A DNA stretch of 64,000 nucleotides from Alphaproteobacteria bacterium (lineage in GTDB: Bacteria; Pseudomonadota; Alphaproteobacteria; Caulobacterales; Parvularculaceae). Made by a program: the position numbers and the translations under genes. The stretch spans positions 186,001 through 250,000 of the forward strand of contig WGLS01000004.1 in NCBI GenBank assembly GCA_016125455.1. Reading direction: 5' to 3'. The notes below the pieces were generated by a model, which had not been told where the DNA came from, did no database searches, and saw only the letters and a program-made list of their open reading frames with translations. Numbering within the stretch: position 1 is the first letter of the stretch; each line of letters starts with the position of its first letter. Shown one piece after another: positions 5,909 through 11,137 of the stretch.

Positions 5909-6667
5909 TCATTCCTTGGACGTGGATGGGGCGAATGCGGCGCGAATGGCCCCGATCGCAACGACCGGGCCGGTTGGCGCCCCGGTTGGCGATCCGCCTT
6001 CGGGTTCGATGGACACCGCGAGCAATGACCCGACAGCGAGCTTGTCACGGAGCGCCTCGCCGACGCGCACGGTTGAGCGGCCGACGCCACTAATCAGGCC
6101 AAGGCTTCGCGGCGCGCCATCCTCAGGGATAAGCCACAATTGGGCGGCCTGATCGGATCGCTCGAGCGCCATTTGAAGGGCGGCGTCAGCAATTTCGACA
6201 ACCCCTGTTTCCGCGTCGATCCGGACTGAAAGAATGCTTGGAGCATCCGGCGGCGCTAGGGCGGCCATCAATGGGAAGTCGCGGACGCGAACGTCGGCTT
6301 TTGTGCTCAACATGAAGGCGGCGAAGCCAATTGCGACAAGGGCGACGGCGCAGAAACCGACCGCCGTCGCCCGCCAGAACGCCAGCGCCGACGCAAGGCG
6401 AGACGCGAGTTCCTTCTGGGACGGCGCTACGGTCGTTGGGTGGCCAAAGAGTTTCGATACAATTCGAGCTTTGAGTTCCGGCGAAGGCGACTCTTCCGGC
6501 GTCGATGTTAGCATGCCGGCGAAAAACGCCGACCAATCCGCCAATCGTACGGCAAACTGCGCATCCTCAGCCGCGCGACGCGCTGCACGGTCGTTATCCT
6601 CCGCATCAAGAACGCCAAGCGCCGCCTCGGCGGCGAACAATTCGTCTTCTTCGGACGGAACGGTCAT
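5909..6667 (-). CDS. RskA-type anti-sigma factor
   Basis: A 252-residue single-pass membrane protein. Residues 1-60 form the cytoplasmic sigma-binding part, starting with an acidic EEDELFAAEAALGVL segment typical of RskA-like proteins and lacking a zinc HxxxCxxC motif. A membrane helix spans about 100-120, and the remaining periplasmic part resembles the anti-sigma-K domain (AAQLWLIPEDG, then LAVSIEPEGGSPTG). It overlaps the sigma gene by 4 bases (ATGA), implying translational coupling and stoichiometric control. Signal sensing would occur in the periplasm. Confidence 0.9.
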   Translation of the reverse strand: MTVPSEEDELFAAEAALGVLDAEDNDRAARRAAEDAQFAVRLADWSAFFAGMLTSTPEESPSPELKARIVSKLFGHPTTVAPSQKELASRLASALAFWRATAVGFCAVALVAIGFAAFMLSTKADVRVRDFPLMAALAPPDAPSILSVRIDAETGVVEIADAALQMALERSDQAAQLWLIPEDGAPRSLGLISGVGRSTVRVGEALRDKLAVGSLLAVSIEPEGGSPTGAPTGPVVAIGAIRAAFAPSTSKE

Positions 6668-7272
6668 CGCAGGACCACGCCTCCGTCAGTTTCAGAGCCT
6701 TCGGGCGCGTCATCGCTCACGGACTGGAGGCCGCTCGGGATGCGATCAACGCACTCACGAAGCTTTATGATCGCCCGCCGGACGGCGCTCTTGACCGTTC
6801 CGACCGGCGCGCCTAGCCGCTCCGCGATATCTGAATAGGTCAGCCCTTCGAAATAGGCGCTGCGCACCATGCCGCCATGGTTCTTTGGAAGTTGTTCTAT
6901 GCAGTCCTCCAACCGCCGCATTTCGCTCGACGCTTCCGCTCGCCGTTCCGGATCAGGCGCATCGTCAATGAAAACGGTCATGTCTTCGCCATCTGGCACA
7001 GTCCGGCGGCGGCGCAGCAAATCGATCGCGGCATTGCGCGCGATGACGCACAGCCACGAAATGACGCTGGCCTTGCCGGCGGTGAAGCGATCGGCGCGAA
7101 GCCAGACATTAACGAAGGTGTCGTGAAGCGCGTCTTCCGCCAACTGTCGATCATTCAAGATACGCAGGCACACGCCATAAAGTTTCGCCGAGGTACGATC
7201 GTACAATGCTTCGAAGGCGCGCCTTTCGCCGCGAGCCGTTCGAAGCATGAGATCGTCCAGGTTTGTCGACAT
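6664..7272 (-). CDS. ECF RNA polymerase sigma factor
   Basis: A 202-residue group IV sigma factor. Region 2 contains DALHDTFVNVW at 47-57 and ISWLCVIARNAAIDLLRRRR at 71-90; region 4 carries the helix-turn-helix GLTYSDIAERLGAPVGTVKS at 143-162. It is followed by an overlapping anti-sigma gene, so its activity is probably controlled by membrane sequestration. A GGAAC-N17-CGTT promoter at 7356-7381 suggests transcription by an ECF sigma, possibly itself. The divergent exported DUF4394 gene is a likely target. Confidence 0.93.
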   Translation of the reverse strand: MSTNLDDLMLRTARGERRAFEALYDRTSAKLYGVCLRILNDRQLAEDALHDTFVNVWLRADRFTAGKASVISWLCVIARNAAIDLLRRRRTVPDGEDMTVFIDDAPDPERRAEASSEMRRLEDCIEQLPKNHGGMVRSAYFEGLTYSDIAERLGAPVGTVKSAVRRAIIKLRECVDRIPSGLQSVSDDAPEGSETDGGVVLR

Positions 7273-7352
7273 CTCGGCCCGCCGTTCCGATTCCAGCTAC
7301 TGAGAGCTTGTTTGCGCGGCGATTGCACGCCGTCACGCGTTGCGACCATGGC

Positions 7353-7381
7353 GGAAACGCGTGGCCATTGGAATGCGTTCC
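7353..7381. promoter_or_regulatory. Near-symmetric divergent ECF-type promoter
   Basis: On the minus strand, GGAAC (complement of 7377-7381) is followed after 17 bases by CGTT (complement of 7356-7359), heading for the sigma gene. On the plus strand, GGAAAC at 7353-7358 is followed after 17 bases by CGTT at 7376-7379, heading for the DUF4394 gene. The -35 of one overlaps the -10 of the other. GGAAC-N16/17-CGTT is the known consensus of several alphaproteobacterial ECF sigmas including EcfG. Predicted leaders are about 75 and 128 bases. Confidence 0.55.
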
Positions 7382-7515
7382 CCGGCATTCGGAAAATTCA
7401 ATGGTTTGAGGAAACTTTTCGGTTCCGTAATGCAACCTTTCGCCAGCGGCTTGCGTGCCTCCGAATGGTTAATCGCGTCCGCCCGTCGGCGGGTGCGTCC
7501 AATTGGAGGGTGTAT

Positions 7516-8442
7516 ATGGGCTTTCAGAGGGTAACTACAGCAGCGATCGCCAGCCTTGCGGTGGCGGCGACCTTGGTCGGCGGCGCTGAGGCTGCGCTGA
7601 CCGGCTTCGCGTTGACGTCGAATGGCCAACAGATCGTGGCGTTCGATCCTGGCAACCCCGCCGGCGCCACGACTTTGTCCGTCACGGGCGATGCAAGTCG
7701 TCTCGACGCGTTCGACTTTCGACCTGCGACAGGCGAGCTGATCGGTTTCGACAGCGCGACAGACCGCTACTTTGTTATAGATACTTCAACAGGCGCGACG
7801 ACCCGTATTGATGATGGCGCCGCCGTCGTCGTGCCCCAGTCAAACGTTCTCGATGTTGACTGGAACCCGACGATCGACCGCATGCGGCTGGTCACCGGCG
7901 CAAATGATAACGTCGTGTTCAATCCTACGAACGGGGCGACGACCCAGGTGACCGACCTGTTCTACGGCGTGGGCGACGTATCAGAGGGGGTCGATCCAAC
8001 CATCGTTGGCAATGCGTATACCAACAGTTTCGCCGGCGCAGGCGCGACGGTGCAATACGTCCTTGACGCTGCGACCGATAGTCTTGGCGCCCTTGCAAAC
8101 AACGCCGGGGCAATCTCGACGATCGCACCACTGACTCTGGGTGGATCCAGCTTCTTCTTTGGAACGAATGGCGGGTTCGATATTTTTTCCGGGGGCGGCG
8201 GGGAGGTTGCCTACGCGCTGCTCTTCGGCGGCGGTCTGACATCGCTTTTCACCCTCGATGTCGCAACCGGCGGCCTCACGAAGCTCGGCGACTTTTCAGC
8301 GAACCTTGGCGGCCTGAAAGGATTGGCGATCACCGACATAAATGAAGTGCCGCTGCCGGCCGCACTTCCAATGTTCGCAATGGCGCTTGGCGGGCTGAGC
8401 ATGGCCGCCCGGCGCCGTAAGGCGCCAGCCGCACCGCTGTAA
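7516..8442 (+). CDS. Exported DUF4394 protein with VPLPA-CTERM sorting signal
   Basis: A 308-residue secreted protein. I start it at ATG 7516 because GGAGGG ends 5 bases upstream and a signal peptide follows (cleavage near AEA, about residue 26); the frame stays open further upstream only as a shadow of the sigma gene. The body has the repeated LDAFDFRPATGELIGF and DVDWNPTIDRMRLV patterns of DUF4394, a predicted beta-propeller-like domain. The C-terminus has VPLPA at 278-282, a short hydrophobic helix and RRRK at 299-302: a VPLPA-CTERM tripartite exosortase signal. It should be cleaved and released or attached to surface glycan by an exosortase such as the one at 51865-53451. Confidence 0.88.
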   Translation: MGFQRVTTAAIASLAVAATLVGGAEAALTGFALTSNGQQIVAFDPGNPAGATTLSVTGDASRLDAFDFRPATGELIGFDSATDRYFVIDTSTGATTRIDDGAAVVVPQSNVLDVDWNPTIDRMRLVTGANDNVVFNPTNGATTQVTDLFYGVGDVSEGVDPTIVGNAYTNSFAGAGATVQYVLDAATDSLGALANNAGAISTIAPLTLGGSSFFFGTNGGFDIFSGGGGEVAYALLFGGGLTSLFTLDVATGGLTKLGDFSANLGGLKGLAITDINEVPLPAALPMFAMALGGLSMAARRRKAPAAPL

Positions 8443-8635: not shown

Positions 8636-11137
8636 ATGCGATCGGCTTGTCTAGCGGTATTGGTGATTTTTTGCGGCGTGACGGCATGCGCGCCGGCGAC
8701 AGATGGCGCGCCGGAACCAAAGCCAGGCTTGCCCACTGGCCTTAACGACAGCGCGGACACCTTGTTCCCGGTCGCCCTTACCGATGATGGCAAACTGTTT
8801 GTCGCTTTCGACGCACCCGCGGACGATGGCGTCCTCGGACGCTTTATCCACACTGCGGGGCTTACTGCAGGCTTGGGGTCGAACCCGGTAGGGCTGGATC
8901 GAGGTCTCGGCGACGCAGGGCGGATTGTTGCGTTCAGGCTGGTCGGTGGCAAAGTGCTTATAGAGCAAGAAAACTGGGAGTATCGCGCGAGCGCCGAAAA
9001 CCCGGCCGAAAAGCTTGCGGTGCGCAACTCCTTCGCGTCGTCAATTCTCTGGAGCGGAAAGGCTGAAGACAATGCGCCAGCTGGTCGCGTTGTCGTCGAC
9101 CTCGCCAGTTTCGTTGCCAGCGACGCCATGGGCGTTGGCGCCCGTTTGAAGGAAGCCGGACAGGGTAACTATTCATTCGACAAGGACCGGTCTTTCGTTG
9201 AGCGCGGCGGCGTTCTCCAGTTTCCGGACAATATAGAGATTGATGCGGCCATCACGTTCGCGGCCGCCGAAGCGGGCGACGAAGTCGCGCAAGTTGCGGC
9301 GGACGGTCGATCATTCACGTTGCGGCTGCATCACTCATTTGTCCGATTGCCTGCCGATGGCTTTGTGTCGCGCGATTTCGATCCGCGAGTCGGCGCGATC
9401 GACATGTCCTACCTTGATTTCAGCGCGCCGCTTGGCGGGCAGATCGAGCAGGCCTTCGCTCGCCGGTTTCGACTTGAGCGGGAGGATCCGTCCGTCGAAA
9501 AGGGCCCGGCGAAAAAGCCGATCGTCTTCTATGTCGACAACGGCGCGCCTGAGCCAATTCGGTCCGCTTTGGTCGAAGGCGCCTCGTGGTGGGCCGACGC
9601 GTTCGACGCCGCCGGGTTCGAGGACGCCTACCGCGTCGAGATCTTGCCCGAAGACGCCCACCCGATGGATGTCCGATACAACATCATTCAATGGGTTCAT
9701 CGACAGACCCGGGGATGGTCTTACGGGGGTGGCGTCGCCGACCCCCGAACTGGCGAAATGCTGAAAGCACGCGTCATTCTCGGGTCACAGAGGGTGCGAC
9801 AGGACCGGATGATCTTCGAAGCGCTCGGCGGCGTGGAAAAGACGGGCACCGGCGAACCGGACGATCCGCTTGAGTTGTCGCTTGCGCGCATTCGACAGCT
9901 CGCCGCCCACGAGGTTGGCCATACGCTTGGCTTTGCGCACAATTTCGCCTCGAGCACGAATGATCGCGCATCGGTTATGGATTATCCCGCGCCGCTGGTT
10001 CGTCCGACAGCGGATGGCGGCCTTGATTTCTCTGACGCGTACGGCGTCGGCGTTGGCGATTGGGACAAGTTCGCCGCGACTTGGCTTTATGCGGCTTTCC
10101 CGGATGACGCCGACGAACAGGCAATGCTCGAGGCGCTCGTCGATGATGCCTATGCCCGCGGGCTCCGGTTCGTCGATGACGCGCACGGACGGTCGACGGG
10201 CGCGGCGCACCCTTATGGTTCGGTCTGGGACAATGGCGCCGATCCAATTGCGGTGCTCGACGAGACCATGACCGTTCGCGCCAGGGCGCTCGCCAAATTC
10301 GGCGAACGCGTCTTGAAGAACCAGGAGCCGACCTCAAGACTGCGCGAAGTGATCGTGCCGCTCTATCTCTACCATCGCTATCAGACGGCCGCGGCCGCAA
10401 AGGCGCTTGGCGGATTTGAGTTTCGTCACGCAACGAAAGGCGACGAAAACGCTGTTGGCGCGCCAGTCGCCGGCGATCGGCAGCGGGCGGCCCTTGCGGC
10501 GCTCCTGCGCACTTTGGACCCTCGAGCGCTGTCCTTGTCGCCGGACGTCATCAATCGTCTGACGCCGACGATCGACGCAGGTTACGGATGGGCGAGCGCG
10601 CGCGAACAGTTCGATGGTGAAAGCGGTGAAATGTTCGACCTCTCGTCGGCGGCGGACGCCGCGGCGACGTTGACGCTCTCGGCAATTTATCATCCCGCCA
10701 GGATTGCCCGGCTCGTGGAAACCGAGCGGTTCGACGTTGACGCGCCGACGCTGGAAGAAGTCTTTCAGTCGACAGAAACCGCGGTGTTCCGGGGCGACGG
10801 ACCGGATACGGCGGCGTTGGTTTCGCGGATCGTGCAGGCCCGTTTCGTCGCCGTGATGATCGAACTTGCGGCGGCGTCGACTTCACCTGAAATTGCCGCG
10901 CGCACGGATGGATATCTGCGCGCCATGCGATCGCGATTGCGTCCTGGACTGATTGACGGCCCTTCGCAGGATCGCGCATTCCGTGAATGGCTGGTGTCGC
11001 GGATCGAAGCTCACCTGTCGCGTCCGGCGCCCAGCGCGTCGCCGACGCTGCGCGCGACGGACGCGCCTCCGGGAAGTCCTATCGGCGCCGGCGGCATGGA
11101 ATCCTGCTGGCATTGCGACGCGATCAAGAGGAAATGA
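8636..11137 (+). CDS. Lipoprotein zinc metalloprotease (DUF5117/DUF4953 type)
   Basis: An 833-residue exported protein. The signal ends in a lipobox (VTAC, Cys18), so it should be lipid-anchored. The catalytic motif HEVGHTLGFAH at 425-435 is a perfect HExxHxxGxxH metzincin-type zinc site, followed by a Met-containing SVMDYPAP turn, as expected for the Met-turn. The flanking sequence, including IEIDAAITFAAAEAG, YVDNGAPEPIRSALVEGA and YNIIQWVHRQTRGWSYGGGV, matches zinc-dependent metalloproteases annotated with DUF5117 and DUF4953. Its stop overlaps the nitrilase start, so the three genes to 12701 appear to form one translation-coupled unit. Substrate unknown. Confidence 0.9.
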   Translation: MRSACLAVLVIFCGVTACAPATDGAPEPKPGLPTGLNDSADTLFPVALTDDGKLFVAFDAPADDGVLGRFIHTAGLTAGLGSNPVGLDRGLGDAGRIVAFRLVGGKVLIEQENWEYRASAENPAEKLAVRNSFASSILWSGKAEDNAPAGRVVVDLASFVASDAMGVGARLKEAGQGNYSFDKDRSFVERGGVLQFPDNIEIDAAITFAAAEAGDEVAQVAADGRSFTLRLHHSFVRLPADGFVSRDFDPRVGAIDMSYLDFSAPLGGQIEQAFARRFRLEREDPSVEKGPAKKPIVFYVDNGAPEPIRSALVEGASWWADAFDAAGFEDAYRVEILPEDAHPMDVRYNIIQWVHRQTRGWSYGGGVADPRTGEMLKARVILGSQRVRQDRMIFEALGGVEKTGTGEPDDPLELSLARIRQLAAHEVGHTLGFAHNFASSTNDRASVMDYPAPLVRPTADGGLDFSDAYGVGVGDWDKFAATWLYAAFPDDADEQAMLEALVDDAYARGLRFVDDAHGRSTGAAHPYGSVWDNGADPIAVLDETMTVRARALAKFGERVLKNQEPTSRLREVIVPLYLYHRYQTAAAAKALGGFEFRHATKGDENAVGAPVAGDRQRAALAALLRTLDPRALSLSPDVINRLTPTIDAGYGWASAREQFDGESGEMFDLSSAADAAATLTLSAIYHPARIARLVETERFDVDAPTLEEVFQSTETAVFRGDGPDTAALVSRIVQARFVAVMIELAAASTSPEIAARTDGYLRAMRSRLRPGLIDGPSQDRAFREWLVSRIEAHLSRPAPSASPTLRATDAPPGSPIGAGGMESCWHCDAIKRK

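Follow-up and report, generated by a model that had tools for sequence, protein, structure and literature searches.

A SigK-like sigma factor of an alphaproteobacterium, a predicted promoter of its divergent DUF4394 gene and a candidate promoter within the sigma gene itself

The window, by which we mean the whole 64-kb stretch of DNA that was analyzed, carries an ECF sigma factor gene and an RskA-type anti-sigma gene on the minus strand and, diverging from the sigma gene, a DUF4394 gene on the plus strand. The source genome is 96% complete and comprises 3.6 Mb in 37 contigs. The genes and features that concern us are as follows.

5909-6667, minus strand: RskA-type anti-sigma gene (rskA), 252 aa, RskA_C domain at 61.7 bits against a cut-off of 29.4
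6664-7272, minus strand: SigK-like ECF sigma factor gene, 202 aa, with Sigma70 r2 and r4 domains
7158-7187, minus strand: predicted sense promoter inside the sigma gene, directed toward rskA, with −35 CGAAACT (7187-7181), 16 bases and −10 CGTATCT (7164-7158)
7334-7363, no strand: imperfect 30-bp palindrome, CACGCGTT-N4-CCATGG-N4-AACGCGTG, with 12/15 pairs, overlapping the symmetric element
7353-7381, no strand: symmetric 29-base element of the original prediction, plus-strand letters GGAAACGCGTGGCCATTGGAATGCGTTCC
7431-7460, plus strand: predicted sigma-dependent promoter of the DUF4394 gene, with −35 TGCAACC (7431-7437), 16 bases and −10 CGTGCCT (7454-7460)
7516-8442, plus strand: DUF4394 gene with a VPLPA-CTERM tail, 308 aa, DUF4394 domain at 147 bits

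The sigma and anti-sigma genes overlap at 6664-6667, and the neighbor of the sigma has the RskA_C domain that marks a SigK/RskA pair. NCBIfam SigK-type models matched the window sigma, all below their cut-offs (PRK09646, 138.7 bits against a cut-off of 226), and its top match among solved structures was SigK (4nqw, E 1.4e-27). The protein is SigK-like and, falling below the curated SigK cut-off, is not filed as SigK. Its candidate target, the DUF4394 protein, scored 27.8 bits for the VPLPA-CTERM tail in the genome search, above the cut-off, and 23.1 bits in the protein scan, below it. Downstream on the same strand lies a gene for a met-zincin of 833 aa (DUF4953/DUF5117, 8636-11137). The fasciclin-type target expected beside a SigK/RskA pair is missing, as a domain search in which control genomes were positive found no fasciclin domain in the source genome. 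No sigma-70 promoters were found in 7150-7650, nor was a promoter for the full-length window sigma.

Relatives of the sigma are distant. Among 100 related genomes and 385 genomes of the class, the closest other sigma was 49% identical and no close orthologue was found; a contig scan with the window sigma as the single query returned no relative. Comparisons were made with the best 80 relatives listed from a further contig scan (41 to 51% identical), 79 of which have an RskA-type neighbor. In the tree, the window sigma forms a long branch (0.97) from an unresolved fork and falls outside both the well-supported main fasciclin-linked clade and a 14-row clade designated group II (100/98). Three distant sigmas of the window's family (L025, L026 and L027) carry, by eye, TGAAC(C/T)TTTT followed by CGTA before their own starts, and in this the window sigma differs.

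Several relatives reside in plasmid loci that bring together sigma, anti-sigma, fasciclin and DUF4394 genes (in Qingshengfaniella, Leisingera, Aestuarium and Ruegeria), joined in Leisingera and Ruegeria by MsrB, as in locus L165 of Ruegeria sp. TM1040. Inspection by eye revealed TGAAACT-N15/16-CGT before five of the plasmid fasciclin genes and before the DUF4394 genes of L046, L049, L089 and L108. Of the 53 distinct regions preceding fasciclin genes that neighbor related sigmas, 44 had the pattern GAAAC-N16..18-CGT, as did 39/48 once the five regions seen previously were removed; the strict form TGAAACT-N16-CGTR was present in 21/53 and 16/48, respectively. A promoter matrix was trained on 37 non-redundant fasciclin sites alone (spacer of 17 in 33 of them and 16 in 4), in which training sites score 14 to 36 and the 1% chance level is 7.3 per 250 bp. 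Although 49/53 fasciclin regions pass this level, that figure is circular, these regions being the training set, and it was not used as evidence. The matrix was then run over the window (383,700 scored positions), and p values for the intergenic region were derived from 3000 simulated copies of it. The two best positions both fall in the sigma/DUF4394 locus. The computation thus yields a motif of the related sigmas' targets together with two sites, which the window sigma would presumably recognize. A separate search for dyads before 97 sigma genes, thinned to 83, was set aside, since by eye the top pairs resembled coding sequence shared among the genes upstream and signals of a housekeeping type.

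The second-ranked site in the window, at 7431-7460 (TGCAACCTTTCGCCAGCGGCTTGCGTGCCT), scored 16.2, with p 0.0013 against the simulated copies. It lies 85 bp before the DUF4394 ATG, as against 70 to 86 bp in relatives when counted alike; measured from the first G of the −35 core, the distance is 84 bp in the window and 69 to 85 bp in the seven relatives that pass the 1% level. Across 47 distinct DUF4394 upstream regions, eight exceeded the 1% level, namely those of the window, L046, L049, L089, L108, L161, L162 and L164. The other 39, most of which belong to other DUF4394 branches, fell below it; among them are L020 and L022, which belong to the family of the window sigma and in which DUF4394 is divergent from or linked to related sigmas. 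The −35 of the window, TGCAACC, departs from the usual TGAAACT, and L161 shares the TGCAAC variant. A genome search for TGMAACY-N16-CGTGNCT with up to one mismatch gave 5 places against 3 for the control, and the sole exact match was 7431-7460; three further one-mismatch sites (L186-L188) scored 8.9, 5.6 and 4.6. Elsewhere in this intergenic region, a plus-strand GGAAAC at 7411-7416, followed by TTTT, offers a good −35 and was rejected, having no properly spaced CGT and scoring at most 4.3 nearby. Just past the predicted DUF4394 start, at 7465-7472, is ATGGTTAA, whose reverse, TTAACCAT, is a CtrA half-site sequence; it is also found before the DUF4394 gene of L020, which has TGGTTAA.

A second candidate target was found on another contig of the source genome (L189:1502-2318, contig C30), where TGCAACT-N16-CGTTCCT, scoring 19.3, precedes a VPLPA-CTERM gene by 82 bp. 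Its product of 244 aa has a VPLPA-CTERM tail and a CHRD-like domain at 23.2 bits, under the cut-off of 24.1. This gene and the window DUF4394 gene (16.2) stand out among the 18 scored VPLPA-CTERM genes, the next reaching 9.8 and the remainder 1.7 or less; these 18 came from 20 candidates with starts picked mechanically, L194 and L202 having given no row. Because only two of 18 stand out, GAAACT-N16-CGT is not enriched in the source genome (16 against a control of 20) and fasciclin genes are absent from it, the regulon appears to be small, with only part of the VPLPA-CTERM set in it.

A different promoter architecture had been put forward for this locus. In the original prediction, the element at 7353-7381 was a single symmetric site from which one sigma would drive its own operon and the VPLPA-CTERM gene, the two directions excluding each other. 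The letters are exactly as described, with GGAAAC-N17-CGTT on the plus strand and GGAAC-N17-CGTT on the minus strand, between the divergent sigma and DUF4394/VPLPA-CTERM genes; the spacing of each half, N17, is that of the family core GAAAC-N17-CGT, and the plus half carries that core exactly. The accompanying argument, that perfect spacing on both strands speaks against chance, is not borne out, because AACG-N16-CGTT, the core, is identical to its reverse complement. Its presence on one strand dictates the same on the other, so that two-strand symmetry is not independent evidence. In the 3.6-Mb genome, the core was counted at 84 places on either strand, against 81 for the reversed control pattern. 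The complete symmetric pattern, flanked by GGA and TCC, was drawn up after the site had been seen; it is rare, with about 0.07 matches expected per 64 kb, and the 2 observed are one site counted on both strands. The matrix scored the minus half at 0.1 (rank 67) and the plus half at −0.5 (rank 84), far from the training sites, and a much better site lies 50 to 80 bp closer to DUF4394. Nor was AACG-N16-CGTT present in the 250 bp before DUF4394 in any of 14 other divergent DUF4394/sigma loci, some of which, such as L089 and L108, have a gap of more than 250 bp. We therefore hold it very improbable that one symmetric site serves as the sigma's promoter in both directions; the mirror look of the element is probably a coincidence, and the element is probably not a promoter of the window sigma. 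What stands of the proposal is its broader part, in that one ECF sigma probably acts both on the divergent VPLPA-CTERM gene and on a portion of its own operon, from sites other than this one.

Parts of the element may be considered on their own. Its minus half is the top matrix match toward the sigma start codon and has a −10 block score of 3.8, as might be expected if the sigma gene had a weak promoter for autoregulation. At p 0.09, however, this better half is not clearly above chance, as an overlapping bidirectional promoter would require of both halves, and GGAAC-N16/17-CGTT was absent from the 400 bp upstream of the sigma start in all of the best 80 relatives listed. A site above the 1% matrix level precedes the sigma gene in only 4 of these 80, where about 1 is expected, and since related sigma genes so rarely have an upstream site, the sigma is probably not self-amplifying; the minus half is unlikely to be a real promoter. 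The same half is a literal match to GGAAC-N16/17-CGTT, the consensus promoter of EcfG in the general stress response. A search for NepR (PF18557) found none in the 96% complete genome, with a positive Caulobacter control, and the genome-wide motif search called for by the original prediction gave 92 matches to GGAAC-N16..18-CGTT against 155 for the reversed control. With NepR not found and the motif not enriched, an EcfG promoter can be set aside as the least credible of these readings. The symmetric look might instead derive from the palindrome at 7334-7363, whose right arm is the plus half of the element and which could be a regulator site or a hairpin in the sigma leader. The palindrome has perfect 8-bp arms around CCATGG, gave p 0.0075 for the region and matches nowhere else in the genome when up to 3 mismatches are allowed. 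That p value is one of several from tests on the region and is uncorrected, the uniqueness argues against a regulator with many sites, and no relative is near enough for comparison; a role for the palindrome is doubtful. Our preferred reading places the promoters that the window sigma would use at 7431-7460 and inside the sigma gene.

The intragenic site at 7158-7187 is the best in the window (24.1) and lies within the first fifth of the sigma coding sequence. Its codons encode a conserved peptide (TSAKL.GV.LRIL), and the match could be a by-product of this peptide, conserved for its own reasons, and of codon habits. Several results argue against this. The matrix came from other genes, those for fasciclin proteins. 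At the homologous codons of relatives its median was 22.9, compared with 1.7 for synonymous shuffles, and the observed score beat the shuffles at p<0.05 in 60 of the 71 sigma genes in which the peptide pattern was found (out of 81, the window and 80 loci). When 998 combinations of offset and strand were surveyed in 78 non-redundant sigma genes, the window included, only the intragenic site stood out, with a median of 22.8 and a score of at least 14 in 64/78, while the next best offset had a median of −1.4. Codon choice ran against the habits of the same genes: AAA was used for K30 in 63/75 (133/376 elsewhere), CTT, CTC or CTA for L31 in 64/78 (471/1510 elsewhere) and CGT for R37 in 66/68 (128/1311 elsewhere; Fisher 1.9e-58, a value that, like the others of its kind, overstates the case because related genes are not independent). 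The site is thus conserved at the DNA level beyond codon habits, and a mere by-product of the peptide is an improbable explanation for it. As judged by sequence, the sigma gene carries a predicted sense promoter of its own type, in the manner of sigH-rshA.

The intragenic site is present in 47/54 sigmas of the fasciclin-linked group (L167sig2 being counted here) and in none of the 14 group II sigmas at 7.3 or above. Within the window's family, L010, L011, L015 and L024 have one and L020 and L022 do not. It is also missing from seven Paracoccus sigmas, though retained in an eighth (L104), and from L161, L167sig2, L092, L095, L054 and L123, and presence of the intragenic site showed no visible co-variation with that of the fasciclin site (43/3/5/1 of 52). 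In Paracoccus L110, L114, L115, L121 and L126, the −35 box of the fasciclin gene is CGCAACT or TGCAACT and no intragenic site remains, a combination that hints at a shifted specificity.

The group II loci resemble the window in having the same divergent gene pair, presumably with one sigma acting both ways, and mirrored −35-like boxes. Outward GGATGC...GCATCC boxes spanning 34 to 57 bp, with A/T-rich middles, were found in 9 of the 14 other divergent DUF4394/sigma loci (L133-L138, L153, L167 and L168) and in 3 of 1400 simulated regions. They likely represent two back-to-back promoters with separate −35 boxes, belonging to another SigK-like subgroup; in contrast to the element in the window, the two boxes do not overlap.

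MPT83 is a fasciclin-domain protein, and fasciclin neighbors are common among relatives of the window sigma. SigK/RskA systems, with mpt70 and mpt83 as targets, are described for Mycobacterium, as well as for Yersinia enterocolitica, in PMC7509140, and resemble the window in that an RskA anti-sigma accompanies the sigma and the targets are exported. As stated in the same paper, the promoter directly before sigK is not SigK-regulated, and autoregulation in M. tuberculosis proceeds via Rv0449cp (PMC7509140). The window differs in its DUF4394 VPLPA-CTERM target, in a genome without a fasciclin gene, in a sigma below the SigK cut-off and in the motif TGMAAC-N17-CGT. A closer parallel for the intragenic site is sigH-rshA of Corynebacterium glutamicum, where, in the account of this pair in PMC3489674, sigH harbors a SigH-dependent promoter that serves only rshA and is thought to supply anti-sigma and end the response. 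The C. glutamicum promoter has been mapped, 62 to 66 nt before rshA (PMC3489674), whereas that in the window is predicted only, is located toward the 5′ end of the sigma gene and has been retained in many species of alphaproteobacteria. Two other alphaproteobacterial ECF promoters are (T/C)GTAAC-N17-CGAA for ECF16 (PMC8315932) and GGAATA / GT for ECF26 (PMC6180224); ECF16 has the same spacing as the window family, but the −35 and −10 letters of both are unlike its motif. We found no description of the motif, of a DUF4394 regulon or of the intragenic site in the open-licence papers covered.

Taken from sequence, the reading we favor, with a probability of roughly 0.7, is a negative-feedback circuit in which the RskA-type anti-sigma would hold the SigK-like ECF sigma. 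Once released, the sigma would transcribe the DUF4394 gene from 7431-7460 on the plus strand, not from the symmetric element, and would control a small set of exported VPLPA-CTERM proteins. Active sigma would also start a transcript at 7187-7158 on the minus strand, inside its own gene; such a message would miss the beginning of the sigma gene and include rskA, so that active sigma would make more of its inhibitor and would not amplify itself. We infer the negative feedback from this arrangement. Extended to the alphaproteobacterial SigK-like sigmas in general, the reading is somewhat less secure yet still one we lean toward: their genes would carry their own promoter in the conserved region-2 codons, the sigma would make its anti-sigma and not itself, and the outputs would be exported DUF4394, fasciclin and CHRD proteins. 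As part of this extension, with the same leaning, one stretch of DNA would encode both part of the core-binding region of the sigma and a promoter, and the peptide TSAKLFGVxLRIL may be partly shaped by that promoter.

If this is right, a widespread family of sigma/anti-sigma pairs has a negative-feedback promoter written into coding sequence, and a regulator can be proposed for the VPLPA-CTERM proteins of the DUF4394 and CHRD types. A symmetric promoter that was tempting and probably coincidental gives way to a testable map of an uncharacterized ECF circuit, and the promoter motif could be used to list the regulon in many genomes.
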